Assembly: GCA_017889625.1 (NCBI GenBank)
Contig: JAGGAD010000025.1
Span: forward strand, 1-63,089
Direction of reading: 5' to 3'
DNA from: Bacillota bacterium
GTDB lineage: Bacteria; Bacillota; Negativicutes; Sporomusales; CTSoil-080
Length of the DNA stretch: 63,089 nucleotides
Below are positions 4,874-31,165 of this stretch, in pieces. The first letter of the stretch is position 1. Every line of letters starts with the position of its first letter. Both the position numbers and the translations under genes were made by a program. Below the pieces are notes generated by a model that saw nothing but the letters and a program-made list of their open reading frames with translations, made no database searches and had not been told where the DNA came from.

Positions 4874-6220
4874 ATGATAAACAAAGAAGAAGCAAAATTT
4901 ATTATCGCCCGTTTAGACAATTTACCTCTTTCTCGGTTTCACTATAAAATGTTGGTTGTTAACGGTTTTGCATGGGCATTTGATGCTTTTGATGTAGGTT
5001 TAGTTACCTTTGTAGTTACTGCTCTAACACAGGCTTGGAGCTTAAATACGGCGGAAATTGGTATTTTGCTGAGCTCAGGTATGGCTGGTATGATTCTAGG
5101 TGCATTTTTATCAGGACCGTTGGCTGATCGTTTTGGGCGTAAAGCAGTATTTAAATGGACGATGCTTATTTTTTCGATTTTCTCACTTTTGTGTGCAGTG
5201 GCTTGGAATTTTTGGTCACTAGTAATATTTCGTTTTTTTGTTGGCCTGGGGCTAGGCGGGGAAACTCCAGTGGTAACCTCCTTGCTGGGAGAATTTGTTC
5301 CGGCCAAAGACAGAGGAAAAGTGCAAGGTTTATTGAATTGTTTCTGGGCGATTGGTTGGTTGGGAGCTGCACTAATCTCATTTTACTTGATTCCAACGAT
5401 TGGTTGGCGCTGGGCCTTTGTCTCTGGGGCACTTCCCGCCTTTTATCTCTGGATAGTACGGCTGCATATTCCGGAATCACCGCGGTGGTTGGCGCTTAAG
5501 GGGCGCGTACAGGAAGCAAAAGAAATTATGGAGCAAATAGAAGCGGTTGTTGCACGTACGCATAAAATTGAACCGGTGACGGAAGCGAGTGTAAGCAGTG
5601 TCCCTGACGTAGAAAAGAGTTCAATCAAGGATTTGTTTAGGGGGAGATATTTGCAACGTACGGCAATGCTATGGATTCTTTGGTTTTTCGGGATGTTTGC
5701 TTATTATGGGTTGTTTTCCTGGATGCCGACGCTTCTCGTAAAGGCTGGGCACAGCATGGTAAAGTCGTTTGAATATGTTTTGTTTTTACAAATTGCTTAT
5801 TTGCCTAATCAGATTCTCTCTGCCTACCTTATGGACAAATTTGGCCGCAAGTGGCCGTTGATCATCAATTTGATTTTATCAGGAATTATGACAGTTATTT
5901 TTGGTTGGGCGTTGGGAAGCAACCTTAATACCATGGAGGTATTATTCTTTGGCCTTCTGACTTCGTTTTGTGTTTCTGGGGTTTGGGCTATCACTTATAC
6001 TTATACACCGGAACTTTATCCAACAGGAATTCGGGTTACTGGTACGAGTTGGGCGGCGACTTGCTCACGGTTTGGTTCTATGTTGGCCCCGTTGATTATT
6101 GGATATAGTTTAAACTCATTGGGTATTTCCGGAGTGTATGGTGTGATCGCGTTTGCATTTGTGGTTGCTGGCCTTGCTGTTATTTTTTGGGGAAAAGAAA
6201 CCAGAGGGCAGCATTTATAA
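4874..6220 (+). CDS. NiaP-like niacin transporter, MFS (copy 2)
   Basis: This 448-residue, 12-TM MFS protein is a paralogue of the transporter at 3284. It shares RLDNLPLSRFHYK at the N-terminus, FDAFDVG in TM1, ADRFGRK, RGKVQGLLNCFWAIGW and YTYTPELYPTGIR. It differs by a longer charged central loop around residues 220-255. It belongs to the same NiaP/aromatic-acid symporter group. Its stop codon is 46 bp before the dehydrogenase FeS subunit gene, so it probably starts the catabolic operon. Two copies may differ in substrate, for example nicotinate versus 6-hydroxynicotinate, or in affinity; this cannot be decided here. Confidence 0.83.
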   Translation: MINKEEAKFIIARLDNLPLSRFHYKMLVVNGFAWAFDAFDVGLVTFVVTALTQAWSLNTAEIGILLSSGMAGMILGAFLSGPLADRFGRKAVFKWTMLIFSIFSLLCAVAWNFWSLVIFRFFVGLGLGGETPVVTSLLGEFVPAKDRGKVQGLLNCFWAIGWLGAALISFYLIPTIGWRWAFVSGALPAFYLWIVRLHIPESPRWLALKGRVQEAKEIMEQIEAVVARTHKIEPVTEASVSSVPDVEKSSIKDLFRGRYLQRTAMLWILWFFGMFAYYGLFSWMPTLLVKAGHSMVKSFEYVLFLQIAYLPNQILSAYLMDKFGRKWPLIINLILSGIMTVIFGWALGSNLNTMEVLFFGLLTSFCVSGVWAITYTYTPELYPTGIRVTGTSWAATCSRFGSMLAPLIIGYSLNSLGISGVYGVIAFAFVVAGLAVIFWGKETRGQHL

Positions 6221-6266
6221 AAATATTGATGCGCAGCTGGTTACAATCAAATTGGGGGCTAATAAA

Positions 6267-6740
6267 ATGGAAGAAAAAATGAAAATTAAGTTTCTGTTAA
6301 ATAAAAAAAATATAGAAGTAGAAGTATTGCCAAACCGTCGGCTAATTGATTTTTTGCGGGATGATTTGGATTTGATAGGAACAAAATTAGGGTGTGGCGA
6401 GGGAGATTGTGGCGCTTGCACTGTAATTATTAATGGAAAAACCGCGAATTCATGCTTGGTATTAGCACCGCAGGTTGACGGTAAAGAAGTGATTACGATT
6501 GAGGGATTAGGGGATTATGATAAACTAGATTCTTTGCAGCAAGCGTTTATTGATGAGGGCGCGGTTCAGTGTGGTTTTTGTACTCCGGGGATGTTGTTGT
6601 CGGCAAAAACGCTTTTGGATGAAAATCCGAAGCCAAGCCGGGAAGAAATTATGCGTTCCATGTCGGGCAATCTTTGCCGCTGTACCGGGTATGTGAAAAT
6701 TGCAAATGCAATTGAAAAGGTGGCTAACGCAAATAACTAA
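6267..6740 (+). CDS. ndhS: Nicotinate dehydrogenase, 2x[2Fe-2S] subunit
   Basis: This 157-residue protein is the small iron-sulfur subunit of a xanthine-dehydrogenase-family hydroxylase. The N-terminal plant-type [2Fe-2S] site uses C43, C48, C51 and C63 (GCGEGDCGAC context), and the C-terminal helical site uses C102, C105, C137 and C139 (CGFCTPG and CRC). It passes electrons from the molybdenum centre to FAD. The start at 6267 follows a GGGGG ribosome site; an upstream in-frame extension would run into the transporter gene. The Mo subunit gene follows 22 bp later. Assignment to nicotinate as substrate rests on the adjacent enamidase and 6-hydroxynicotinate reductase genes. Confidence 0.88.
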   Translation: MEEKMKIKFLLNKKNIEVEVLPNRRLIDFLRDDLDLIGTKLGCGEGDCGACTVIINGKTANSCLVLAPQVDGKEVITIEGLGDYDKLDSLQQAFIDEGAVQCGFCTPGMLLSAKTLLDENPKPSREEIMRSMSGNLCRCTGYVKIANAIEKVANANN

Positions 6741-6762
6741 GGCAGTAGGGGCGATAGATATT

Positions 6763-9024
6763 ATGGAAGAACTTTCTGTTGTAGGAAAATCGGTCATCCG
6801 CAAGGATGCGTTAGATAAAGTTTTGGGTAAGACCAGATACAGTGCAGATATAAAGATGCCAGGTATGCTTTATGTAAAAGTACTTAGAAGTACGGTGCCT
6901 CATGCGCTGGTTCAAAAAATTGATGTTACGGTGGCTAAAGCCTTGGCTGGCGTAGCCGCGGTGCTGACTGCGGATGATGTGCCGGGGCTGAACGGCCACG
7001 GAATTATTATTAAGGATGAGCCGGTTTTGGTAAAAGATAAAATTCGCAAAATCGGTGATCCGCTGGCGGTTGTTGCCGCTGAAACAGAAGAGATCGCCAT
7101 TCAGGCGCTCAAGCACATTGTTGTAGAATTGGAAGAATTGCCGGCGGTTTTTGATGCCGTGGAAGCGATGCAAGACGATTCGCCTAAAGTACATGGGAAA
7201 AGTAATATTTTAGCAGTAAGAAAAATCTTTAAAGGCGAAATCGACGAAGCCTTTGCGGCTGCGGATATTGTCGTTGAGAATGTTTATTATACCCAGATGC
7301 AGGAACATTCATATATTGAGCCGGAAGCCGGTATTGCCTATATGGATGGCAATCAGGTAGTAATTAAAGCTTCCACGCAAAATACTCATTTTGATTGTCG
7401 TGAAGTAGCGAGAAATTTGGGTGTGCCGCAAAGTCGGATAAGAATGATACAGGCACCTACGGGCGGTGGTTTTGGGGGAAAACTGGATGTATCGGTCCAA
7501 ATATATTTGGCACTTTTAGCGATGAAAACAAGAAAACCGGTAAGGCTTGTTTATTCGCGGGAGGAATCGATAATAGCTTCAACCAAGCGCCATCCCTGTA
7601 GAATTCGTTATCGGACAGCGGCTGATAAGCAAGGAAAACTTTTGGCAGTGGATGTGGAGGCAATTGCCGACACCGGTGCATATGCTTCTTATGGGCCTGC
7701 ACCTGTTACCAGGTTAGCGGTACATGCCACTGGTCCGTATGAAGTTCCAAATGTAAGAATTTATGCGTATACCGTTTACACGAATAACCCCACTGCTGGG
7801 GCAATGCGTGGTTTCGGTGTACCGCAGGCTGCGTTTGCATATGAACAACAGATGGACATGATTGCGGAAAGAGTAGGGATAAGTCCACTGGCTGTCAGGA
7901 TGATCAATTCCTTGAAAAAAGGAAGCAAGATGGCAACGGGACAGATGATTCCCAGTGGACCGGGGATATCGTCAACATTGTTGCCTGCTTACGATAAAGC
8001 AATACAGACAAAAGCGCTGGCAGGTTATGAACCATCAGTTAAAAAGCGGGGCTATGGCTTGGGCTGCATGTTCTTCGGCGTTGGTAATACGGGTCAGCCA
8101 AACCCTGCGGGGGCATTCTTAGATCTATTGGATGATGGAAGTGCTAATTTGATGGTTGGGGCTGCAGATATTGGGCAAGGTTCGAATACGATTTTGGCTC
8201 AGATTGTGGCGGAAGAATTAGGAATGGATTTCGAGGATGTGCAAGTTACATCTGCAGATACTGGAGTTACCCCCGATGGTGGTGCAACTTCGGCCAGTCG
8301 TCAGACCTATATTTCAGGCAATGCAACTTTGTTGGCAGCGAAAGAAGTAAAACAGCTTTTGCTTGCAGAAGCGGCTGCATTGTTTGGCGTAGCTCAGGAC
8401 AAAATTGTATTAAAAAACCGGCAGGTTATGGTTGTTGGCCAGGAAAGCAAAGATGGTATTTCCATAAAACAACTAATTACAGTCTGCCGGAGCAAAGGCA
8501 AGATGACCCTCGGACATGGGTGGTTTAACCCATCAACGACAGCGTTAGATGACGAGACTGGACAAGGGGAACCTTATGAAGCGTATTCTTTTGGTAGTCA
8601 AGTTGTAGAAGTTGAAGTAGACACTGAGACGGGTGTGGTAGAGGTGCTGAACCTTTATGCGGCTCATGATGTTGGACAAGCGATAAATCCGCTGCATGTC
8701 CAAGCGCAAATTGAGGGCGGCAGTATCATGGGACTTGGCTATGGCCTCTATGAGGATATGAAAAAGGTGGAAGGAAAGATAAAAACTTCGTCTTTTGCAA
8801 CCTATCTTATTCCTACTTCACTAGATATACCGTCAATTCAGGCGATTATTGTTGAAGATAAAGCTGATACCGGTCCGTTTGGCGCTAAAGGTTTGGGCGA
8901 AACTTCGCTGGTGCCTACCGCCGCAGCTATTGCTAATGCAGTATATGATGCCGTTGGAATTCGAATAAAGTCGTTGCCGATAACCCCGGAAAAAGTATTG
9001 CGAGCTTTGGAAGAAACTCGATAA
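6763..9024 (+). CDS. Nicotinate dehydrogenase, undivided molybdopterin subunit
   Basis: This 753-residue protein is the molybdopterin-binding subunit of a xanthine-dehydrogenase-family hydroxylase, predicted to hydroxylate nicotinate at C6. Visible landmarks are GGGFGGK near residue 235, GAMRGFG near 346, a GAADIGQGSNT stretch near 465, and GAKGLGE with the likely catalytic glutamate at E713. In E. barkeri this subunit is split into two proteins, NdhL and NdhM; here they are one chain, with the corresponding junction near residue 428 (KKRGYGLG). Local stretches such as RSTVPHA and GIIIKDEP resemble NdhL as I recall it. The start at 6763 has AGGGG ahead. Selenium dependence of the E. barkeri enzyme cannot be judged from sequence. 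Confidence 0.88.
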   Translation: MEELSVVGKSVIRKDALDKVLGKTRYSADIKMPGMLYVKVLRSTVPHALVQKIDVTVAKALAGVAAVLTADDVPGLNGHGIIIKDEPVLVKDKIRKIGDPLAVVAAETEEIAIQALKHIVVELEELPAVFDAVEAMQDDSPKVHGKSNILAVRKIFKGEIDEAFAAADIVVENVYYTQMQEHSYIEPEAGIAYMDGNQVVIKASTQNTHFDCREVARNLGVPQSRIRMIQAPTGGGFGGKLDVSVQIYLALLAMKTRKPVRLVYSREESIIASTKRHPCRIRYRTAADKQGKLLAVDVEAIADTGAYASYGPAPVTRLAVHATGPYEVPNVRIYAYTVYTNNPTAGAMRGFGVPQAAFAYEQQMDMIAERVGISPLAVRMINSLKKGSKMATGQMIPSGPGISSTLLPAYDKAIQTKALAGYEPSVKKRGYGLGCMFFGVGNTGQPNPAGAFLDLLDDGSANLMVGAADIGQGSNTILAQIVAEELGMDFEDVQVTSADTGVTPDGGATSASRQTYISGNATLLAAKEVKQLLLAEAAALFGVAQDKIVLKNRQVMVVGQESKDGISIKQLITVCRSKGKMTLGHGWFNPSTTALDDETGQGEPYEAYSFGSQVVEVEVDTETGVVEVLNLYAAHDVGQAINPLHVQAQIEGGSIMGLGYGLYEDMKKVEGKIKTSSFATYLIPTSLDIPSIQAIIVEDKADTGPFGAKGLGETSLVPTAAAIANAVYDAVGIRIKSLPITPEKVLRALEETR

Positions 9025-9055
9025 ATTATGGTATGACCATAGGGATGAGTGCGAC

Positions 9056-9757
9056 ATGGAGAACGAATGTTTTATAAAGATACTTTCACATAGTGGTATG
9101 GTAAATATAAGACGGCGTATCGACGCTATCGGTGAATGGCTTTCTCAATCGCCAAAAAGAGAATACCCAATGCTGGAGGATATTTTTTATATCCTCCAAA
9201 AATATCAGGTATCTGATGGCGTTATCAGACATAGTGTAACTGTTGCTGAGGCGGCGGTTAATTTGGCAATATGGTTAAACGAAAGCGGAATAGAGATGAG
9301 TACGCCGATGCTTGCTGCGGCTGGACTTTTACATGATATTGCAAAAGGTACTCCCGCGCATGCAAAACAAGGAGCAAAGATTATCGGTGAGTTAGGGTAT
9401 CCGGCTATTGCGGCTATGATTGCAACTCATATGGATCTAACTATTTTGAAGCATGAAGCTTTGAATGAAGGCGCTATTTTATATTTTGCTGATAAACTAT
9501 CGCGGCAGAATCAAATTGTTAGTTTGGAAGAGCGGTTTAATGCATCGCTTGAGAAATATGATGGCTCGTTGGAGGTAATGGCTTCAATAAAAAAGCGGTT
9601 TATGGCGGCGTGGATCATTCAAAATAAAATTTTAACAGTGGTAGACGGTAAGCTTGTTACTATCAATTCGGCTGAGGCTTATGCGCTATGGAACGTCATT
9701 AAGATAAATGGTCAAGAGGCAGGAGATGTTCATTATTATGAGTCAGTTTATATATAA
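9056..9757 (+). CDS. HD-domain protein within the hydroxylase operon
   Basis: This 233-residue soluble protein has an HD-type metal-dependent phosphohydrolase domain: RHS near residue 58, LLHDIAKG near 90-97, and THMD near 121. It lies between the Mo and FAD subunit genes of the dehydrogenase and overlaps the FAD gene by 20 bp, so it is translationally coupled. In some anaerobes an HD domain is fused to a MobA/MocA-like nucleotidyltransferase (DVU_1551 type). That suggests a role in maturing or recycling the molybdenum cofactor, and a separate MocA-like gene is present at 17759. The actual substrate is unknown; a general nucleotide or phosphate-ester hydrolase remains possible. Confidence 0.8.
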   Translation: MENECFIKILSHSGMVNIRRRIDAIGEWLSQSPKREYPMLEDIFYILQKYQVSDGVIRHSVTVAEAAVNLAIWLNESGIEMSTPMLAAAGLLHDIAKGTPAHAKQGAKIIGELGYPAIAAMIATHMDLTILKHEALNEGAILYFADKLSRQNQIVSLEERFNASLEKYDGSLEVMASIKKRFMAAWIIQNKILTVVDGKLVTINSAEAYALWNVIKINGQEAGDVHYYESVYI

Positions 9758-10601
9758 AAAACCCAAGCAGTTGCAGGAGGCTTTCTCAATAATGAAAGAA
9801 AATCCGGCATATTCAATTATTGCCGGTGGTACTGATTTAATGGTTAAGATGAAGGATAATCGTATAACCGCTAAAGTTATTATTGATGTAAGTGAGCTAA
9901 ATGATTTACGGGAGATAAAAGAAAAACAAGGAACGATTTATCTTGGGGCGGCAGTTACTCATACCGAAATTTGTAAGTCAGAACTATTGAGAGGGTTTGC
10001 GCCAGCTTTAGTTCACGCATCTGGTCTGGTGGGATCGCCTCAAATACGTAATCGAGGAACAGTGGGGGGGAATATCGGAAATGCATCGCCGGCGGCTGAT
10101 ACTATTCCTGCGTTAATGGCGTATGGTGCTGAAATCGTTCTTGCTAGCGCCGAAGGGGTAAGAAGCTTGGCGCTGGAAGATTTCTTTGTTGGGCCTGGGC
10201 GGACTGTCATTTCACCTGGTGAAGTGATACTAAGTATAGAGTTTAATAAACTCCAGGCGACCCAGGCAGTAAGTTTCGAAAAATTGGGGAAGCGAAAAGC
10301 GCTTGCTATTTCGGTAGTCAATGCCGCAGCGTTTCTAGAAATTGATAAAACAAAAGCCGTAGTGACAAAGGCACGATTAGCTTTGGGTTCTGTGGCGGCT
10401 AAACCTATTCGGGTAAGCGCTGCGGAAGAGGCGCTTATTGGTTATTCCTTGTCTGATGATAAAATTAAAGAAGTGGCAAAAATTGTTTCTGATAGTATAA
10501 CACCTATTGATGATGTTCGCTCTGAGGCGCTTTACCGCAAAAGGATTGCCGGTGTTTTAACGCAACGGACCTTAATTGATGCGTGGAAACAACTTGTATA
10601 G
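9738..10601 (+). CDS. ndhF: Nicotinate dehydrogenase, FAD subunit
   Basis: This 287-residue protein is the FAD-binding subunit of the molybdenum hydroxylase. The FAD_binding_5 fold is marked by IAGGTDLMV near residues 28-36 and TVGGNIGNASPAADT near 108-122, followed by the CO dehydrogenase flavoprotein C-terminal domain. It accepts electrons from the FeS subunit and reduces the final acceptor (NADP in E. barkeri). The start at 9738 lies inside the end of the HD-domain gene with AGGAG 12 bp upstream; an ATG directly after that site (9726) is too close. Gene order FeS, Mo, HD, FAD is unusual because of the HD insertion. Confidence 0.88.
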   Translation: MSQFIYKKPKQLQEAFSIMKENPAYSIIAGGTDLMVKMKDNRITAKVIIDVSELNDLREIKEKQGTIYLGAAVTHTEICKSELLRGFAPALVHASGLVGSPQIRNRGTVGGNIGNASPAADTIPALMAYGAEIVLASAEGVRSLALEDFFVGPGRTVISPGEVILSIEFNKLQATQAVSFEKLGKRKALAISVVNAAAFLEIDKTKAVVTKARLALGSVAAKPIRVSAAEEALIGYSLSDDKIKEVAKIVSDSITPIDDVRSEALYRKRIAGVLTQRTLIDAWKQLV

Positions 10602-10656
10602 ACGCAACTTGTAATAAATGACAAATGGAAGGGAAAAGTATAAGGGGGATTCTACG

Positions 10657-11817
10657 ATGGCAGTGACAGTATTAATAAATATAGGACATATAATGACCGG
10701 GGATATAGCTCAGCCTAATAGTTCGGAAAATACCATTGTTATTCAGGATGGGGTTATTGCCAAAATTGGTAGTGAAACTATTATTAAAGATTACCAAGTA
10801 GATCAAGTAATTGATGTTGGCGGTATGACCGTAACTCCGGGGCTCATTGATTCCCATGTGCATCCGGTGTTGGGCGATTATACACCACGACAAAAAACCC
10901 AAGACTATCTTGATAGTGCAGTTCACGGAGGAGTAACAACTTTTATTTCTGCGGGTGAGGCCCATACTCCGGGACGCCCCAAAGATCCGGCGGGAACGAA
11001 AGCGTTGGCAATCTTGGCCCATAAATCTTTTGATAACTTACGCTCTGCCGGGTTAAAGGTGCACGGAGGGGCTGTTATTTTAGAAAAGGGTCTAAAAGAA
11101 GCTGACTTTGCGGAAATGGCCAATGAAGGAGTTTGGCTGGTAGGAGAAGTGGGATTAGGTAGTATAAAAAAACCAGAAGAGGCAAGACCCATGGTGGAAT
11201 GGGCCAAAAAATATAGGATGAAAATAGCTATGCATACTGGAGGAACCTCTATTCCGGGAAGCTCAACGGTTTCTGCTGATGATGTAATTGCCGTGGCACC
11301 AACGGTTGTTTCGCATGTAAACGGTGGACCGACAGCAATAAGACCGGAAGAAGTATACAAACTAATTGAAAAAACAGAGTTGCCGTTGGAAATTGTACAG
11401 TGCGGAAATCCTAAGATTGCGGATCTGGTCGTTCGTCTTCTGGCGGAAAAAGGAAAACTTGATCGGGTGATTCTGGGAAATGATGCTCCTTCTGGATCCG
11501 GAGTTATACCATTAGGAATTTTGCGGACAATCTGTCAGCTGTCATCCATGTCGAAAATTGCACCGGAGAAAGTTATTGCAATGGCTACAGGTAACACCGC
11601 AAAGGTATTTGGCTTAGAAACCGGATTGATTGCTGAGGGTAAAGAAGCCGATTTGGTTGTTATGGATGCTCCGTTAGGCTCCGTAGGGAAAAATGCGGCA
11701 GAAGCTATTTGGGCTGGCGATTTGCCAGGCATTGCAATGGTTATTGTCGATGGAGTCGTTAGAGTAAGTAAAAGCCGCAATACACCGCCAACCACCGGAA
11801 AGTATACAATGAAATAA
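10657..11817 (+). CDS. ena: Enamidase (1,4,5,6-tetrahydro-6-oxonicotinate hydrolase)
   Basis: This 386-residue amidohydrolase matches E. barkeri enamidase very closely as I recall it (385 residues). It hydrolyses 1,4,5,6-tetrahydro-6-oxonicotinate to 2-formylglutarate and ammonia. Metal ligands expected for the Fe/Zn site are visible: H67 and H69 (DSHVH), E164 (VGEVGLG), H193 (MHTGG), H220 (SHVNGG), and an Asp in GNDAPSG near 276. The C-terminus keeps KSRNTPP. The start at 10657 follows AAGGGGG; the ATG at 10618 lacks such a site. It follows the FAD subunit gene and precedes 6-hydroxynicotinate reductase. This is the strongest single identification of the pathway. Confidence 0.93.
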   Translation: MAVTVLINIGHIMTGDIAQPNSSENTIVIQDGVIAKIGSETIIKDYQVDQVIDVGGMTVTPGLIDSHVHPVLGDYTPRQKTQDYLDSAVHGGVTTFISAGEAHTPGRPKDPAGTKALAILAHKSFDNLRSAGLKVHGGAVILEKGLKEADFAEMANEGVWLVGEVGLGSIKKPEEARPMVEWAKKYRMKIAMHTGGTSIPGSSTVSADDVIAVAPTVVSHVNGGPTAIRPEEVYKLIEKTELPLEIVQCGNPKIADLVVRLLAEKGKLDRVILGNDAPSGSGVIPLGILRTICQLSSMSKIAPEKVIAMATGNTAKVFGLETGLIAEGKEADLVVMDAPLGSVGKNAAEAIWAGDLPGIAMVIVDGVVRVSKSRNTPPTTGKYTMK

Positions 11818-11847
11818 ATTCTGGAGCAATAGAAAGGGTGTTTTGGC

Positions 11848-13323
11848 GTGGCGATTGTAGTTGACCTCGAATTGTGTAAGGGCTGCGGCGTTTGTCTTAA
11901 GGAGTGTCCTAATAAGGCAATTTCCCTTGAAGAAAAGAAGGCGAGACTTGCTGATAGTTGTACTAGCTGTGGAATTTGTGTAAGGGTATGCCCCTTTAAA
12001 GCAATGCATAAAAACTTAGATTTGAAAACCGGTGCAGTAAAGTGTACATCTTGTCCTGTGCAATGTGAAGTTCTAAATGGCTTTATTGGAGCGTGTCAAC
12101 GCTACCGCAATGATGGCGGAAAATTGGTTCGTAATCGCCGCCTTGTAACCGATAAATCGGAAGGCGGTCCGCTTATTACCGCAGTTGGGGCTGGCACGTC
12201 CTATCCATGTTGCCGGCCAGCGCCGCATATTGTTCAGGACACCATAGATGATGTTGAGGTTATTACTGTAGTTACAGAAGCGCCGCTTAGTTATAGTGGA
12301 GTAAAAGTAAAAATTGATACAAATCTATTTATCGGTAACGAAGGAGCAAAAGTTAGACGTAACGGCAAAATAATTGGTATGGTGGACACAGAAGAATACG
12401 GATCAAAAATGCTGACGATTGGCGGGGCAAATCTTCTTACAGGTAAAGACGGCTTTATTGTTGCACGAACTGTTGTAGAAATTGCGAATGGTGAACGTGT
12501 TACGGTCAAAGTCGACGATGGTAGTGAGTTGGAACTTGAGGTTGGGGCCCGACCAATAATAAATGGGATTATTGATACCAAGATGCGTGTAGGCTGCGGT
12601 AGTGCGACTATTGGTATGTTTGCTAGTGTCCTAAAAGAAGCAGTGGATGAAGCGATTATTTTGGATCATCACGTTGTAGGTTTGCTTTCAGAACATTTAG
12701 CGGGTGAATTTGTCGGTATGAGCTGGAGCGGTGTCACTCCTAAGGCGAGAAGGAGTACACGTGGGCGTTATTTTGGGGAGCCTGGACCAGGGTGGGGTGG
12801 AACAGATATTGAAAATCCGCGTGATGCAATTCAGTCGGTGGACATGTTGATAGCCAAAGCAGGTATGAAAATCTTAGTTACAGAGACTACCGGGCAGAAA
12901 GCGGCGTTATTTGAAGTCGAAAAAGACGGGGGCGTTATCGAAATCCCCTTAACAAAACGGGTGAGGCAATCCGTTAATACGATTGTTGCAAATTGTGAAG
13001 AGGCGCGAGTTTCGGCTGTTTATACTGGTGGCACCGGGGGGAGTGCCCGGGCGGGGGTTGCGGTTAATCCGCTTCAGGTAACACAGGCGGTACATTGCGG
13101 TGAGGCAAAATTGACGATTGGCGGAGCGGAAACGTTCGTTCTTCCGGGTGGGGGCATTAATTTTATGGTTGATGTGGAAAAGGTAGTACCGAAAGCCTTT
13201 ACTTGGGTGCCGACACCAGCTACGGTTGCTCCGGTAGAATATACTATGACGTTGGAAAAATATAAGGAAATTGGTGGACATATGGACTATATAAGAATGC
13301 GGGAAGATATAAAAAATAGTTGA
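11848..13323 (+). CDS. hnr: 6-hydroxynicotinate reductase
   Basis: This 491-residue cytoplasmic FeS protein matches 6-hydroxynicotinate reductase, which reduces 6-hydroxynicotinate to 1,4,5,6-tetrahydro-6-oxonicotinate. Two ferredoxin-type [4Fe-4S] motifs are present (C10, C13, C16, C20 and C38, C41, C44, C48), then a third Cys group (C66, C69, C73, C83). This fits the two [4Fe-4S] plus one [2Fe-2S] clusters reported for the E. barkeri enzyme, which also carries covalently bound flavin. A GCGSAT stretch at 249-254 resembles flavinylation motifs recognised by ApbE proteins, and an ApbE-like gene follows at 13345. Translation starts at a GTG with AAAGG upstream. Confidence 0.9.
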   Translation: MAIVVDLELCKGCGVCLKECPNKAISLEEKKARLADSCTSCGICVRVCPFKAMHKNLDLKTGAVKCTSCPVQCEVLNGFIGACQRYRNDGGKLVRNRRLVTDKSEGGPLITAVGAGTSYPCCRPAPHIVQDTIDDVEVITVVTEAPLSYSGVKVKIDTNLFIGNEGAKVRRNGKIIGMVDTEEYGSKMLTIGGANLLTGKDGFIVARTVVEIANGERVTVKVDDGSELELEVGARPIINGIIDTKMRVGCGSATIGMFASVLKEAVDEAIILDHHVVGLLSEHLAGEFVGMSWSGVTPKARRSTRGRYFGEPGPGWGGTDIENPRDAIQSVDMLIAKAGMKILVTETTGQKAALFEVEKDGGVIEIPLTKRVRQSVNTIVANCEEARVSAVYTGGTGGSARAGVAVNPLQVTQAVHCGEAKLTIGGAETFVLPGGGINFMVDVEKVVPKAFTWVPTPATVAPVEYTMTLEKYKEIGGHMDYIRMREDIKNS

Positions 13324-13344
13324 TGGTCATAGGAATAGAAGATT

Positions 13345-14196
13345 ATGATTCAAGTTATTTCGGCGAATAAAGTGTATCTTGACTATGGTCCAATGCAGAT
13401 GACTTTAATTGCGTACGCGGAGGACAAGGGGCAATCGCTGATCGATAAATTGCAGGGAGCGGCTAGATATGGCATCAGTTTATTAGAGGAATTATCCCTT
13501 GTTTTGCCTGTAGCAAAAAGTTTTCCTACAGCAAACAATACTGATATAAGGAGGCTGCCGCTTCCTTTGGTTTATATGGTGGAGGCTGTTAGGGCAACGA
13601 AAGACCTTAGTTTGACGCCAATGGCTGCAGTAGCGGGAACTTTCGCCGACTTGGTAGCGAACTGGTTGGTGGAAAGAGGCGCGGCTAAGGTCATCATTAA
13701 TAATGGCGGAGATATTGCGATTCGGCTGTGGGGTGAGGAAATGACCAAGATCGGCATTACCCCCAGCATTGGCGCAACCCAATTAACTCATTTAATAGAA
13801 CTTTCCAGCCGAAGGGGAATCGGCGGTGTTGCTACAAGCGGATTAGGCGGAAGAAGCTTTACAAAAGGGATAGCTAGCTCAGTAACTGTTTTTGGACAAA
13901 CTGCTAGGATTGCCGACAGCTGTGCGACGCTTATAGCAAACCATTGTTATTTCCCTGATCCCGGGATCAGACAATTGCCAGCTGATGAACTTGATCCAAA
14001 TACCGATATCCCTGGCCACTTGGTTACGGTTGAGGTTAAAAATATAAGTATGACTACAAAACTTAGGGCATTAGAGCGAGGCATAGCCAAGGCAACAGAA
14101 TTAAGAAATGCAGGGATTATCCATGGTGCAATTGTGTTTATCGATGAACTGGTAATGATGATTCCAGAGAATGTATGTTGTGGCGTTAATAAGTGA
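13345..14196 (+). CDS. UPF0280 family protein (ApbE-like fold)
   Basis: This 283-residue protein belongs to UPF0280, a family related to ApbE flavin transferases. ApbE-like landmarks include a VINNGGDIAIR stretch near residues 114-124, SGLGGRSFTKGIASSVTVFG near 172-191, and IADSCATLIAN near 195-205. It has no signal peptide, unlike classical periplasmic ApbE, so it would act in the cytoplasm. It begins 22 bp after the 6-hydroxynicotinate reductase gene. Because that reductase carries covalent flavin in E. barkeri, the inference is that this protein attaches or loads the flavin. No direct evidence exists in the sequence; UPF0280 members have no function known to me. Confidence 0.82.
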   Translation: MIQVISANKVYLDYGPMQMTLIAYAEDKGQSLIDKLQGAARYGISLLEELSLVLPVAKSFPTANNTDIRRLPLPLVYMVEAVRATKDLSLTPMAAVAGTFADLVANWLVERGAAKVIINNGGDIAIRLWGEEMTKIGITPSIGATQLTHLIELSSRRGIGGVATSGLGGRSFTKGIASSVTVFGQTARIADSCATLIANHCYFPDPGIRQLPADELDPNTDIPGHLVTVEVKNISMTTKLRALERGIAKATELRNAGIIHGAIVFIDELVMMIPENVCCGVNK

Positions 14197-14211
14197 TATG
14201 GGGGTATATGT

Positions 14212-15105
14212 GTGAAAGTAGGGTTTATAGGTTTAGGAGCGATGGGCAAGCCGATGGCACTCAATCTGTTGAAAGCCGGGCACTTGCTAGTGGTTAACGA
14301 CGTAAATGCTAAAGCTGTAGAAGAGTTGATATTGGCTGGTGCCAAAAAAGCAGAAAGTCCTAAGCTCTTGGCAGAGCAGGTTGAAGTGGTTATTACAATG
14401 TTGCCCAACGGAGGAATTGTCGAACAAGTACTACTTGGTGAACAAGGAGTATTGGCTGGCGCTGGTGATGGTTTTGGTATTATAGATATGTCAAGTGTTG
14501 CTCCGGGATTTACGCAGAAAATGGCCCGGCTCGCGGCCCAAACGGGAGTTTGTTATCTTGACGCGCCGGTTAGTGGCGGCGTGAAAGGAGCTGCGGAAGG
14601 TACGCTTACCATTATGGTTGGGGGCGACGAACAAGCGCTGGCTCGTTATCAGGGCTTGTTTCAGATATTAGGTAAAAAAATTCATCATATCGGTGCGGTT
14701 GGAGCCGGGGATGCAGTAAAAATTGTTAATAACCTAATGTTAGCAATTAATATGGCTGGCGCTGCAGAAGCCTTTGCCCTTGGCACTAAAATGGGACTGG
14801 ATCCTCAGGTAATATTTGATATTGTTAGTGCGAGCTCCGGTAATAGTTATGCATTGTCAGCTAAAATGCCTAACTTTGTGTTTAAGGGGAATTTTACGCC
14901 AGGGTTCACAGTTGATTTGCAGTACAAAGATTTAGAACTGGCTGTACAAACCGCGAAAGATGTACAAGTTCCGATGCTTTTGACAAATGTTGTGCAGCAA
15001 CTTTATGAACAAGTTCGGGCTGCTGGGCTTGGTAAGGAAGATATCTCTGCAATTATAAAACCATTGGAAACCCTTTGTGATATTCAAGTCAGAGTAAAAA
15101 ACTAA
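14212..15105 (+). CDS. hgd: 2-(hydroxymethyl)glutarate dehydrogenase
   Basis: This 297-residue protein is a member of the 3-hydroxyisobutyrate/6-phosphogluconate dehydrogenase family. It has an N-terminal Rossmann motif (GFIGLGAMGKPMA), the DAPVSGG signature near residue 117, and the catalytic-lysine region GAGDAVKIVNNLM near 162-174. In this context it should reduce (S)-2-formylglutarate from enamidase to (S)-2-(hydroxymethyl)glutarate with NADH. Family alternatives, such as tartronate semialdehyde reductase, cannot be excluded by sequence alone but are disfavoured by its neighbours. Translation starts at GTG, preceded by ATGGGGG, 15 bp after the UPF0280 stop. Confidence 0.88.
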   Translation: MKVGFIGLGAMGKPMALNLLKAGHLLVVNDVNAKAVEELILAGAKKAESPKLLAEQVEVVITMLPNGGIVEQVLLGEQGVLAGAGDGFGIIDMSSVAPGFTQKMARLAAQTGVCYLDAPVSGGVKGAAEGTLTIMVGGDEQALARYQGLFQILGKKIHHIGAVGAGDAVKIVNNLMLAINMAGAAEAFALGTKMGLDPQVIFDIVSASSGNSYALSAKMPNFVFKGNFTPGFTVDLQYKDLELAVQTAKDVQVPMLLTNVVQQLYEQVRAAGLGKEDISAIIKPLETLCDIQVRVKN

Positions 15106-15126
15106 AATTATTGGCAGGAGATAAGT

Positions 15127-16548
15127 ATGGATGCACTTATAAACTATATAAAGAAACAAGGCTATAATATAGGTAATCTTACCATCGGGGAAAGCCTTGA
15201 AATTGCTAAGGAACTGCAGGTCCGGGTGAGTGATGTAGTCATTGCGGAGGCAATGCATGAAAATGCATTAAGCCGTGAGGAAGTTAAGGCATCCGTTCAG
15301 GCGGCCTTTCGTCATAATTTATATGCAACAGAAATCGGCTTGACAAGTAGCTCTAGTTTTTTGCTTGGCCAAGTGCCGCAAGAATTGGCCGCTGATGACT
15401 TTGCAAACCGACTATTTGAGGATGATTTAGTTAACCGAATTTTAGTGTATACATTAGGTGCACAGGTTGGTAATCATACCTGTGGATTAGAGCCGTGTGC
15501 TGGGACCGGTGATTCTTGTACTTATTCGGGGTTATACCGCGCTTTTCAAGAAACGATTGTGGATGAAGATGAGCTATTTCGCGTGAGCTCCGTTATTCTC
15601 AAAATAGGTACGATTTTTCGGGCGGGTAAAACGACAACTGGCTGTAATATGGAGGGTTTTGGGGCAGGGGCTGCGGCGACTGCGGCAGCAATGGTAGAGA
15701 TGAAAAAAGGCTCGCCGGAATCAATGAATAAGGCAATTGTTTTAGCGCTTTCACCTACGATCGGTAATCCATGCACGCCTAGAGTCATGGTGGCGGGATT
15801 ATGTTCAACCCATATAGGTGGTGGCGTGATAATTGGTAATCTAGCAGCAAACTTAGCGCTTAAAACCAATATTCCGGTAAATGTTCCGGCGGATGTAATG
15901 ATAGCCATGGCCGCGGCTGTCCATTCGGTATCAGCTAAAAGCATAGTTCCGGTTGTCATTGAGTATATGCATCCGTTTTTTAAAACAAATCTGGAAGTTG
16001 AAGCTTTTATTGAACAAAATATAAAAGATAAAGAACAAGACGCTATTGATAAAACCATGCAGGTGGCAATTGAGAAAGCGCGGGAGTTAGCAAAAAAAGC
16101 AAACTCTATAGTTAAGCCATTTGGCGATGCTGTGGTAGGCGGAAGCAGTCAGGCCGTGGGATCGCCGACTAATACAGGCCGAATAGCCCATGATTTGGCA
16201 AAAGGCGAGATTACTGGTGTGAAAATTGAACTGTATCCGGAACTCTTTGCCCGTCGTGGCATTAATGTACCAGGTATATTAATGGGAGCGGTGTTGGGAG
16301 CTGGTACTGACGACAGCAAAGCTTATAAAGAAATTATGCAGATTATGCGGGAGAAAAAAATAAAGGTAGAAATAGTAGAAGTTAATGAACCGCAATTGCA
16401 GCGAGTTACCGTATATGCCGCGGAACAAAACAGTATGGTTGAGGCATTGAATCGTGGTGGCGCACGTTTAGTACTGAAAAAGGCAGTACCATCTGTTGAC
16501 GCTGCTTCTGAAGTAGCCAAAAAACTAGGTATTGTTTTAGTAGATTAA
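15127..16548 (+). CDS. hmd: 2-(hydroxymethyl)glutarate dehydratase, serine-dehydratase-like
   Basis: This 473-residue protein resembles the [4Fe-4S]-dependent L-serine dehydratases with alpha and beta parts in one chain. Cysteine-bearing stretches are GLEPCAGTGDSC (about 119-130), TTGCNMEGFGAG (about 174-185) and GNPCTPRVMVAGLC (about 215-228), which could supply the cluster ligands. A C-terminal regulatory-like segment follows. In the E. barkeri pathway a serine-dehydratase-like enzyme is predicted to dehydrate 2-(hydroxymethyl)glutarate to 2-methyleneglutarate. The position directly after hgd, spaced 21 bp with a GGCAGGAG site, supports that role over serine catabolism. Confidence 0.85.
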   Translation: MDALINYIKKQGYNIGNLTIGESLEIAKELQVRVSDVVIAEAMHENALSREEVKASVQAAFRHNLYATEIGLTSSSSFLLGQVPQELAADDFANRLFEDDLVNRILVYTLGAQVGNHTCGLEPCAGTGDSCTYSGLYRAFQETIVDEDELFRVSSVILKIGTIFRAGKTTTGCNMEGFGAGAAATAAAMVEMKKGSPESMNKAIVLALSPTIGNPCTPRVMVAGLCSTHIGGGVIIGNLAANLALKTNIPVNVPADVMIAMAAAVHSVSAKSIVPVVIEYMHPFFKTNLEVEAFIEQNIKDKEQDAIDKTMQVAIEKARELAKKANSIVKPFGDAVVGGSSQAVGSPTNTGRIAHDLAKGEITGVKIELYPELFARRGINVPGILMGAVLGAGTDDSKAYKEIMQIMREKKIKVEIVEVNEPQLQRVTVYAAEQNSMVEALNRGGARLVLKKAVPSVDAASEVAKKLGIVLVD

Positions 16549-27941: not shown

Positions 27942-29162
27942 ATGTCGCTTGAAGGAAAAGTGCTTGTTGCTCAAGGCGGAGGGCCAACGGCAGTTATCAA
28001 TCAATCCTTAGCAGGCATTGTTTTAGAGGCAAGAAAGTTTTTGCAAGTATCCAAAGTATATGGTGCGGTCAAAGGTGTGGACGGTATAGTTAATGAAAAC
28101 TTTCTCGACCTTACTCAGGAAACTACCCATAATTTGGAGCAGGTAGCGCTGACACCATCATCTGCACTTTTATCTACTAGAGCGAAACCTGATAGTAAGT
28201 ATTGCTATGAAATTTTTAAAGTACTCAAAGCCCATGATATACGCTATTTCTTTTATATTGGCGGCAACGATTCTGCCGATACGGTACGAATTGTTAACGA
28301 AGAGGCAATGAAAGCAAGCTATGACCTTAGATCGGTGCATGTTCCTAAGACGATTGACAATGATTTGATGGTCAATGATCACACTCCTGGGTTTGGTTCG
28401 GCAGCAAGGTTTATTGCTCAGACTTTTATGGGGATTAACCTTGACGTTCGAGCACTTCCTGGAGTGTACATAGGGGTGGTAATGGGGCGTAATGCTGGTT
28501 TCTTGACGGCCTCTTCAGCTATTGCCCAAAAGTATCCTGAAGATGGGCCACATCTTATCTATTTACCGGAACGGGTGTTTAATATTGAAAAATTTGTTGC
28601 CGATGTCAAAAAAGTGTATGACCGCCATGGAATGTGTATAGTAGCTGTTTCGGAAGGCTTGCGGGATGAAAGCGGTACGCCAATTACGGTTTCTTTGCAC
28701 AAAAATGTTGAAGTGGATGCGCATGGCAACATATCGCTTTCAGGGTCAGGCGCTTTAGGTGAACTTTTAAGCGAAACGATTAAAGAACGGTTAGGAATTT
28801 CCCGGGTGCGCAGTGATACATTTGGTTACTTGCAGCGATCTTTTGTAGGTTGTGTATCAGATGTTGATCAGCATGAAGCCAGGGAAGCAGGAGAACGAGC
28901 TGTTCAAATGGCAATTTGGCATAATGTAAACGGCTCGATTACTATTCATCGCACCGGTTACTACTCAGTGGACTACCGTTTAACAGAGCTTGGCGAAGTT
29001 GCCGGAAAAACCAAGCTAATGCCTGATGAATTTATTAATAGTGAAGGGAACTATATTACTGATGCGTTCAAGTATTATGTTCGACCGCTATTAGGCTCAG
29101 GGCTTCAGTCGCCGGCCCGGTTAAGGGCACCCATTGTACCTAAGTGTTACGGGTGTAAATAG
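27942..29162 (+). CDS. PPi-type 6-phosphofructokinase
   Basis: This 406-residue protein belongs to the phosphofructokinase family. It has GGGPTAVIN at residues 11-19, GGNDS near 106, and PKTIDND near 133-139. The Lys in PKTIDND, where ATP-dependent enzymes have Gly, is typical of the pyrophosphate-dependent class. It interconverts fructose 6-phosphate and fructose 1,6-bisphosphate reversibly, using PPi. The downstream neighbours are a second, divergent PFK paralogue and class II aldolase, forming a glycolytic cluster. Start follows TTGGAGGGAG. ATP use cannot be fully excluded by sequence reading. Confidence 0.88.
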   Translation: MSLEGKVLVAQGGGPTAVINQSLAGIVLEARKFLQVSKVYGAVKGVDGIVNENFLDLTQETTHNLEQVALTPSSALLSTRAKPDSKYCYEIFKVLKAHDIRYFFYIGGNDSADTVRIVNEEAMKASYDLRSVHVPKTIDNDLMVNDHTPGFGSAARFIAQTFMGINLDVRALPGVYIGVVMGRNAGFLTASSAIAQKYPEDGPHLIYLPERVFNIEKFVADVKKVYDRHGMCIVAVSEGLRDESGTPITVSLHKNVEVDAHGNISLSGSGALGELLSETIKERLGISRVRSDTFGYLQRSFVGCVSDVDQHEAREAGERAVQMAIWHNVNGSITIHRTGYYSVDYRLTELGEVAGKTKLMPDEFINSEGNYITDAFKYYVRPLLGSGLQSPARLRAPIVPKCYGCK

Positions 29163-29226
29163 GTTGCCGTAAGACAATAATTGTAATTGGGTCAAGTTAA
29201 TTTTGATAAAAGGGGGGACAAAAGGA

Positions 29227-30138
29227 ATGAACACTAAGCGGATTGCGGTGTTGACAAGTGGTGGCGGTGCACCGGGGATGAATGTCGCAATTCGTGCGTT
29301 AAAGCGCAAGGGTTTATATCATAATCTTGAAGTTATCGGGATAGCAAACGGCTATGAGGGATTAATTCAAGGAGATTTTTTACCTATTGAGGCTCGTACA
29401 GTGGCGGGCATTATTAAAGAGGGCGGATCAATTTTAAAACTCGGCGGAAGAGAACGGCTGGATACTTTGGCCGGGCTTACCAAAGCCGTAGCCAATATAA
29501 AAGAAAAGCGGATTGATATAGTTGTAGCGTTGGGTGGCAATGAAACTCTGGCTAATGCGAAAAAGTTGTCGGCAGCCGGTATAATGACGATAGTAATTCC
29601 GGCGACGATTAATAATGATATGCCGACAACCGACTATACGATAGGCTTTGATACGGCGTTAAATACCATTCTTCAGGCCATTAATAAAATCCGTGACACC
29701 GTAAGCAGCCACGACCGGGTGGCGATTGTCGAAATTATTGATGGCTGTTTTGGGCAGCTTACCTTTATGGCTGGCTTAGCCAGTGGTGCGGAAGCGGTAT
29801 TAGTACCAGATAAGACTGTGGATATGGAGGGGTTGTGCCAAGGTCTGATAAAAAGCAGTCAACGAGGGAAACTTTACAGCATAATTTTGGTTAGTCAAGG
29901 TGTTGCCGATTGCTATGCGGTTGCTGATCAGATTGAAAAACGAACTTCGTTTACATCTAGGGTGACTGTTCTTGGTCACACGCCACGGGGCGGGGCACCG
30001 TCAGCTATGGATAGTATCAATGCCAGCTGTATGGGGGCGTCAGCCATTGACTATATACTGCAAGGCAAAGCAAATGCTATGGTTGTGATGAATAGGCATG
30101 GGCTAAAGGTTGTGCCTTTTGGCGGTAAAGGAAATTAA
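29227..30138 (+). CDS. Degenerate phosphofructokinase paralogue
   Basis: This 303-residue protein keeps the phosphofructokinase fold signatures (TSGGGAPGMN at 10-19, DYTIGFDTALNT at 136-147, VLGHTPRGG) but has lost key residues. Where E. coli PfkA has GGDGS, this has GGNET (103-107). Where it has TIDND with catalytic Asp127, this has TINND, with Asn at 129. The substrate-binding MGR becomes IDG (171-173), and the ITEH region with Glu222 is replaced. It is probably inactive as a kinase, or acts on a different substrate, or regulates its PPi-PFK neighbour. The start at 29227 follows a GGGGGG site 10 bp ahead. Confidence 0.85.
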   Translation: MNTKRIAVLTSGGGAPGMNVAIRALKRKGLYHNLEVIGIANGYEGLIQGDFLPIEARTVAGIIKEGGSILKLGGRERLDTLAGLTKAVANIKEKRIDIVVALGGNETLANAKKLSAAGIMTIVIPATINNDMPTTDYTIGFDTALNTILQAINKIRDTVSSHDRVAIVEIIDGCFGQLTFMAGLASGAEAVLVPDKTVDMEGLCQGLIKSSQRGKLYSIILVSQGVADCYAVADQIEKRTSFTSRVTVLGHTPRGGAPSAMDSINASCMGASAIDYILQGKANAMVVMNRHGLKVVPFGGKGN

Positions 30139-30238
30139 ACCGGTATTAACAGAAAAAGTTAATCAGGAACTATGTCATACGTTGTAGCAGTATAAACAAT
30201 ACTATTATATTGACCGTGAAACAATAGGAGGGATTAGA

Positions 30239-31165
30239 ATGCCATTAGTATCTTCAACAGAAATGTTTAAAAAAGCGTATGGTAAATACGCTGTCGGTGC
30301 GTTTAATGTTAATAATATGGAAATAATTCAAGGTATTGTTGATGCCGCCAAAGAAGAACAGGCGCCACTAATCCTGCAGGTTTCGGCAGGAGCTCGGAAA
30401 TATGCTAAGCACATCTATTTAATAAAACTTATTGAAGCGGCAGTAGAGGATACCGGGTTAGCTATTTGTTTGCACCTTGACCATGGCGAAGATTTTGAAA
30501 TTTGTAAGGCTTGTGTCGATGGGGGATTTACTTCGGTAATGATTGACGGATCTAAATTCCCGTTCGAAGAAAATATTGCGCTCACCGCTAAAGTAGTAGA
30601 ATATGCTCATGCTCATGGCGTCAGTGTTGAAGGTGAATTAGGGCGGCTGGCAGGGGTGGAAGACGCGGTTAAAGTTAATGCTAAAGATGCTACCTATACT
30701 GATCCGGATCAAGCCGTAGAATTTGTTAAGCGAACCAAGGTTGATTCGCTGGCGATTGCTATTGGTACTAGTCATGGGGCCTACAAATTTAAAGGCGAGC
30801 CGCAACTTGACTTTGCTAGACTAGAAAAAATTGCTAAATTGCTGCCAGATTTTCCGCTGGTGCTGCATGGTGCATCCACGGTACTACCTGAATTTGTTGC
30901 TAAATGCAATAAATATGGCGGTAAGCTAAGTGATGCGCAAGGGGTACCGGAAGATATGTTGAGAAAAGCTGGCACCATGGGGGTTTGCAAAATAAATATT
31001 GATACCGACCTAAGGTTGGCAATGACAGCTAGCATTAGAGAACACTTTGCCAATAACCCGGGAGACTTTGATCCGCGTCAATATCTTAAACCAGCCAGAG
31101 AAGCTGTAAAAAATATGGTTAAACACAAGCTCAGTCAAGTGCTAAATTGTAGTAATAAGATATAA
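30239..31165 (+). CDS. fba: Class II fructose-1,6-bisphosphate aldolase
   Basis: This 308-residue protein is a zinc-dependent class II aldolase. The substrate-binding FNVNN near residue 22-26, the HLDHGED motif near 79-85 (metal His and catalytic Asp), the IGTSHGAYK motif near 180 and LHGAST near 210 are all present. It cleaves fructose 1,6-bisphosphate to dihydroxyacetone phosphate and glyceraldehyde 3-phosphate. The gene follows the two phosphofructokinase-like genes with an AGGAGGG site and is closed by a strong terminator. Confidence 0.94.
   Translation: MPLVSSTEMFKKAYGKYAVGAFNVNNMEIIQGIVDAAKEEQAPLILQVSAGARKYAKHIYLIKLIEAAVEDTGLAICLHLDHGEDFEICKACVDGGFTSVMIDGSKFPFEENIALTAKVVEYAHAHGVSVEGELGRLAGVEDAVKVNAKDATYTDPDQAVEFVKRTKVDSLAIAIGTSHGAYKFKGEPQLDFARLEKIAKLLPDFPLVLHGASTVLPEFVAKCNKYGGKLSDAQGVPEDMLRKAGTMGVCKINIDTDLRLAMTASIREHFANNPGDFDPRQYLKPAREAVKNMVKHKLSQVLNCSNKI

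Follow-up and report, generated by a model that had tools for sequence, protein, structure and literature searches.

The 63,089-nucleotide contig JAGGAD010000025.1 of a Bacillota bacterium (assembly GCA_017889625.1; Negativicutes, Sporomusales, CTSoil-080), referred to here as the window, carries a gene for a phosphofructokinase (PFK) that lacks the residues of its catalytic site. The gene is an open frame of 303 amino acids on the plus strand (29227-30138; ATG start, with an in-frame TTG at 29203 as a possible alternative start) and lies between a gene of the pyrophosphate (PPi)-dependent PFK type and one for a class II fructose-bisphosphate aldolase. Sequence comparison makes the loss of catalysis close to certain and the retention of the protein by selection likely. 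The best reading, to which we give a probability of about 0.5, is that this dead PFK is a pseudo-phosphofructokinase, retained to serve upper glycolysis as a regulatory subunit or sensor. The family comparison covered the window genome, one genome of the same genus (G001) and one further genome of the same family (G002).

The protein matches Pfam PF00365 over nearly its full length (287.8 bits against a gathering score of 30.9; expect value (E) 1.1e-85), and its best solved-structure match, 4a3s (E 1.2e-76), lies among bacterial PFKs. Relative to Escherichia coli PfkA, GGDAPG has become GGGAPG, GGDGS is GGNET (residues 103-107), TIDND is TINND (127-131, with N129 at the place of the catalytic Asp127) and MGR is IDG (171-173); Arg72 is replaced by Gly, Gly108 by Asn and Glu222 by Gln. 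Asp127 is the general base in the E. coli PFK reaction, and MGR positions the substrate fructose 6-phosphate (F6P). The open frame, its coordinates and the GGNET, TINND and IDG changes had been read from the sequence in a first-pass annotation and are borne out by the alignment; the losses of Asp11 and Arg72 (both now Gly) and of Gly108 (now Asn), as well as a truncated C-terminus (see below), come in addition. That annotation also held the ITE region at residue 222 to be lost, which is not the case: the region aligns as VSQ, with Glu changed to Gln at residue 224, and the Glu is kept in both relatives (ASE and VTE).

The orthologues from G001 and G002 are 72% and 69% identical to the window protein, respectively. 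Asp11, Asp103 (Mg site), Asp127 and Arg171 (of MGR) are absent from all three proteins, and the replacements vary among them (GGNET/GGKKT/GDNKA, TINND/TINND/TASND and IDG/YDG/VGG for the window, G001 and G002). The survey of conservation proposed in the first-pass annotation thus found the losses common to the three family genomes, not limited to this strain as it had expected of plain decay. Seventy alignment columns were compared, each invariant in 18 intact proteins of a subfamily for which we coined the name PfkA2 and conserved in at least 90% of 15 canonical rows, the Aneurinibacillus row (see below) and two rows marked _x being set aside. At least one dead row was changed in 12 of the 14 adenosine triphosphate (ATP)/catalytic columns, against 10 of the 56 others (Fisher p 3.9e-6). 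Phosphate-donor motifs were taken as GGDGSxxG for ATP, GGDGSxxI for adenosine diphosphate (ADP) and GG(D/E)D(S/T)xxx for PPi; none occurs in any dead row, the three reading GGNETLAN, GGKKTLCN and GDNKALAN. Nor does the window protein carry the PPi-PFK motifs GG(D/E)D(S/T) and PKTID (it reads GGNET and PATIN), and the catalytic Asp of TIDND in ATP-dependent PfkA is Asn in the window protein and Asn and Ser in its relatives. In the Borrelia PPi-PFK, Asn181 bars adenine (PMC12203962); its equivalent, counted by motif, is Asn110 of the window protein. The ATP-PfkA equivalog model TIGR02482 is missed by the dead PFK (309.7 against a cut-off of 371.35) and was reached by all three PfkA2 proteins scored, out of the 18 (384.1, 371.8 and 384.6).

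Other functional positions are kept. The active-site and effector-site labels used here follow the UniProt style, apart from those stated in papers. All five invariant effector-site columns are retained in the dead rows. Arg23, Arg27, Arg156, Glu189 and Lys215 of the window protein, which we take to be effector-site positions, are kept in all three rows. In known bacterial PFKs this site binds phosphoenolpyruvate (PEP) or ADP. Equally, all four positions for ligands of the F6P 6-phosphate are present in the three dead rows (E. coli Arg162, Arg243, His249 and Arg252; Arg163, Arg244, His250 and Arg253 if the initial Met is counted as 1). Three of them are Arg245, His251 and Arg254 of the window protein (E. 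coli Arg243, His249 and Arg252), presumably the ligands remaining besides Arg162. The Arg162 of one PFK subunit reaches into the F6P site of its neighbour (PMC12203962). The intact PfkA2 proteins (loci L075-L093, for instance L080:6948-7907) have Arg243 in none of 18 rows and His249 in one (Tyr in the other 17), with their catalytic residues intact. The sugar specificity of PfkA2 may differ from F6P, judging by these residues, and Arg243 and His249 of the dead clade may have been regained or merely retained.

Pairwise comparison of the three dead orthologues gave proportions of synonymous differences (pS) of 0.68-0.80, which is saturated, and of nonsynonymous differences (pN) of 0.182-0.237. 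Saturated synonymous sites together with limited protein change argue that selection keeps the protein. The ratio of nonsynonymous to synonymous rates (omega), finite for two pairs out of three, was 0.117 and 0.110, and intact PfkA2 pairs ranged over 0.050-0.158; these values are indicative only, since synonymous divergence is saturated. By distance to six intact outgroups, the window row was nearer than G001 in all six cases and slightly farther than G002 in all six, and is therefore not unusually fast. A pseudogene test found open frames and constraint in the three genomes, the window copy being shortened at the C-terminus. Strain-level decay was rejected as the main account in light of the losses in three genomes, the constrained protein and the unremarkable outgroup distances.

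The order PPi-PFK, dead PFK, aldolase recurs in all three family genomes, with a hydroxypyruvate-isomerase-like gene inserted ahead of the dead PFK in G002. In the window, 64 bases separate the PPi-PFK-type gene from the dead PFK and 100 bases the dead PFK from the aldolase gene, all on the plus strand. Of the earlier statement that the gene sits between active PPi-PFK and aldolase genes, the gene types are supported by profile scores (NF010675, 482 bits against a cut-off of 273, for the upstream neighbour; TIGR01859, 366 against 343, for the downstream one), and the activity of both is predicted from sequence. A scan for promoters and terminators gave no useful signal. Besides the dead PFK, three genes of this genome exceed the Pfam cut-off for PFK: a canonical PfkA (contig C21), a longer PFK (C74, 364-amino-acid frame) and the adjoining PPi-PFK. 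Identity to the dead PFK is 46-47% for PfkA and 24% for the adjoining PPi-PFK. Canonical PfkA is found in all three family genomes, the G001 copy being a contig-edge fragment.

A maximum-likelihood tree placed the dead proteins in one clade (support 100/100), among the class's 18 intact PfkA2 proteins and with a stem branch of 0.8 changes per column. On this tree, the dead PFK derives from or beside the intact PfkA subfamily. In approximately unbiased (AU) tests, run without Aneurinibacillus, E. coli and G125, a dead clade outside all intact PfkA2 had p 0.074, above 0.05, and one sister to the PfkA2 of genome G113 had p 0.125. Origin as a duplicate of the genome's own PfkA was rejected (p 4e-52). 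G113 has an intact PfkA2 flanked in the same order by PPi-PFK and aldolase, so an operon with a live-looking middle enzyme exists today. There, genes for a TRAP permease, a TIM-barrel isomerase-like protein, PPi-PFK, PfkA2 and aldolase stand in a row (L085:3052-8515), which by its gene content looks like a sugar-catabolic cluster.

A first scan of named genomes found no orthologue; an alignment scan recovered both orthologues together with three distant loci (L056-L058). Against 380 genomes of the class, a profile of the three dead PFKs gave 610-622 bits for themselves and 407 for the next best. The DNA pattern P[GA]TI[NS]ND (Ser as AGY only) matched four of 398 phylum genomes, three of them (G536, G500 and G635) in frames without PFK similarity, which leaves the window genome alone; it matched two of the 380 class genomes, the window genome and G001 being the only ones with a match in a PFK. 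The TASND of G002 escapes this pattern, as would further variants. A control pattern with Asp matched 49 of 61 phylum genomes. The plasmid search returned 56 records, all below 60% identity among the matches listed. No bacterial catalytically dead PFK was found in the literature searched, as judged from titles and the opening lines of abstracts, and the words "inactive", "pseudo", "regulatory subunit" and "non-catalytic" do not occur in a 2025 PFK review (PMC12203962). One of the distant loci, in Aneurinibacillus sp. Ricciae_BoGa-3 (L058:6001-6893), encodes a PFK with GGGAPG, GGNGS and TISND split over two frames: a second, independent degenerate PFK and apparently a pseudogene.

An AlphaFold2 model of the window protein from 12 sequences had a mean per-residue confidence (pLDDT) of 85.0 and a predicted template-modelling score (pTM) of 0.82, with pLDDT below 50 at residues 65-67 and 301-303. 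It superposed on E. coli PFK (1pfk_A) with Z 35.1 and a root-mean-square deviation of 2.0 over 299 residues, and Foldseek gave template-modelling scores of 0.89-0.92 (query-normalised) to bacterial PFKs. The alignment held the three dead PFKs and nine of 15 further loci (L114, L116, L121, L123 and L124 unused, L122 dropped for stops). Since it includes intact bacterial PFKs, the model speaks for fold compatibility and no more; a three-row alignment gave pLDDT 45.8.

The closest parallel is found in eukaryotic (fungal and animal) PFK, whose dead C-half lost the ATP pocket and whose F6P pocket became an effector site (PMC12203962). Like the dead PFK, that half has the PFK fold and a sugar-phosphate pocket but neither catalysis nor an ATP pocket, and its TVSNN and MGG align with TINND and YDG of the G001 protein. 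The active-site stretch of G001 scored 59-61 bits against the regulatory C-half of mammalian PFKs and 33-36 against the catalytic N-half, whereas the same stretch of the intact G113 protein scored 56-61 and 62-64, respectively, so that it is only to the catalytic half that the dead bacterial PFK has lost similarity. The best-scoring half listed for the window protein was again the C-half with muscle and platelet PFKs. Unlike the eukaryotic C-half, which is fused to a catalytic half, the dead PFK is free-standing and of the bacterial PfkA lineage; from the tree and the intact bacterial relatives we infer that the likeness reflects convergence, not descent. With the ATP-dependent PfkA of E. coli and Geobacillus stearothermophilus it shares fold, length class, effector-site residues and 6-phosphate ligands, but it is without Asp127, Asp103, Asp11 and Arg171 and falls below the TIGR02482 cut-off. 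The alpha subunit of plant PPi-PFK is described in PMC3653104 as a PFK paralogue serving as regulatory subunit of a heterotetramer in which beta is catalytic. Plant alpha is a subunit of a PPi-PFK, whereas the dead PFK is of the short PfkA type and the PPi-PFK adjoining it is of another PFK type.

The first-pass annotation had called the protein a possible regulatory pseudo-enzyme. The second word is well supported by the losses in three genomes, the constraint on the protein and the conserved operon; a regulatory role, suggested by the kept residues and the eukaryotic parallel, has about even odds. In such a regulatory subunit or sensor, the old active site would now only bind a sugar phosphate (F6P or fructose bisphosphate), the effector site would still read PEP or ADP, and the bound state would be passed through the PFK tetramer interface, where Arg162 reaches the neighbour's site. 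The likeliest partner would be the canonical PfkA of the same genome, in mixed tetramers that would be structurally easiest given the 46-47% identity; next in line would be a tetramer of the dead PFK alone, acting on the PPi-PFK or aldolase encoded beside it, as suggested by the operon. Several observations weigh against a regulatory subunit or sensor. The tight linkage is to PPi-PFK and aldolase, PfkA sitting on a different contig; the dead PFK is known from three sequences, all from draft genomes; it evolves faster than its operon neighbours (pN 0.182-0.237 against 0.042-0.085); and the window copy stops some 20 residues short, without the C-terminal helix. Relative to both relatives, an 11-base alignment gap lies just before its stop, and a remnant of the helix is readable in another frame at 30137-30184 (KPVLTEKVNQELCHTL). 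The G001 and G002 orthologues have the helix and an additional tail.

Tentatively, and with the odds against it, one may propose that a dead PFK standing on its own and pairing with a live one evolved in bacteria independently of eukaryotes, the old active site having turned into a fructose-bisphosphate sensor. If true, this would re-create in trans the division of catalysis and regulation that arose in eukaryotes through gene fusion. PFK is the standard textbook example of allostery, and its catalytic/regulatory split is already known from the fused PFKs of eukaryotes and from plant PPi-PFK; a bacterial dead PFK encoded by one gene and kept by selection would offer an independent, simple test of a catalytic site becoming a sensor. 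Annotators should take note as well: with a score of 313.3 (cut-off 253), the window protein clears the general NCBIfam model NF002872, "ATP-dependent 6-phosphofructokinase", and would probably be entered as an active PFK by automatic annotation and in metabolic models.

The first-pass annotation had also allowed for a new activity, with the site remodelled to carry out a different reaction on a phosphorylated sugar. Novel residues invariant in the three dead rows (Gly13, Asn109, Gly172 and Pro252, E. coli numbering with Met as 1) and the sugar-catabolic neighbours (the hydroxypyruvate-isomerase-like gene of G002, the TRAP permease and TIM barrel of G113) would fit such an enzyme. It is made less likely by the differences among the orthologues at the old active-site positions: a single residue is shared by all three dead rows at five of 15 active-site columns against 49 of 55 others (p 3.7e-5; position 109 joined the active-site set after the 70-column comparison had shown its loss). 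A new catalytic centre should be conserved, and these are the most variable positions, while a ligand sensor would not need conserved former catalytic residues. It is very improbable that the protein is a weak PFK with another phosphate donor, since none of the three donor motifs occurs in any row, although GGN of the window copy is followed by a Glu that bears a loose resemblance to the Asp found in PPi-PFKs.

The protein might keep only the PFK surface, as a structural or moonlighting component that scaffolds, for instance, the RNA degradosome or a glycolytic complex. PfkA has a role in the RNA degradosome in Bacillus. A paper on the B. subtilis degradosome (PMC5030255) reportedly uses "PfkA" 17 times. 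The fold conserved in the predicted model and the retention beside glycolytic genes agree with a scaffold, which seems quite unlikely to us because the effector-site and 6-phosphate ligand residues would not need keeping. A relic in slow decay, left behind once the genome had gained or retained other PFKs, would account for the truncated C-terminus of the window copy and the long stem branch, and the degenerate Aneurinibacillus PFK is frameshifted too; yet the frames are open in three genomes with synonymous sites saturated, the distance of the window row to intact relatives does not exceed that of the other two dead rows taken as a pair (it lies between them for at least 4 of 6 outgroups), and change is concentrated in one site, so that decay of this kind is also improbable.

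Table 1. Features of the dead PFK gene and its neighbours in the window; counts refer to the three dead rows, and relatives are G001 and G002.
Feature	Position	Strand	Evidence
PPi-dependent PFK type gene; GGND, PKTIDND and MGR present	27942..29162	+	profile scores
Dead PfkA-family protein, 303 aa	29227..30138	+	ORF, Pfam, AlphaFold2 model
GGG, Asp11 of GGDAPG gone; Gly in 3/3	29260..29268	+	alignment
Arg23 and Arg27, effector-site arginines, kept 3/3	29293..29307	+	alignment
GGNET for GGDGS (Mg/ATP phosphate site); relatives GGKKT, GDNKA	29533..29547	+	alignment
Asn110 at Gly position of ATP-PFKs; Asn in 3/3	29554..29556	+	alignment
TINND for TIDND, catalytic base gone; relatives TINND, TASND	29605..29619	+	alignment
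Arg156, effector site, kept 3/3	29692..29694	+	alignment
Arg164 (E. coli Arg162), ligand of neighbouring subunit's F6P phosphate, kept 3/3	29716..29718	+	alignment
IDG for MGR; relatives YDG, VGG	29737..29745	+	alignment
Glu189, effector site, kept 3/3	29791..29793	+	alignment
Lys215, effector site, kept 3/3	29869..29871	+	alignment
Gln224 at Glu222 place; Glu retained in both relatives	29896..29898	+	alignment
Arg245, His251 and Arg254, present in 3/3	29959..29988	+	alignment
Stop (30136-30138) and C-terminal-helix remnant in another frame	30136..30187	+	alignment, translation
Class II fructose-bisphosphate aldolase	30239..31165	+	profile scores

Elsewhere in the window, seven genes were scanned against NCBIfam; three had family matches, none of which reached its cut-off. 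Positions 6153-16548 hold genes of molybdenum hydroxylase, enamidase-like, ferredoxin-type reductase, beta-hydroxyacid dehydrogenase and serine-dehydratase-like types, a set that we take to resemble the nicotinate fermentation cluster of Eubacterium barkeri.
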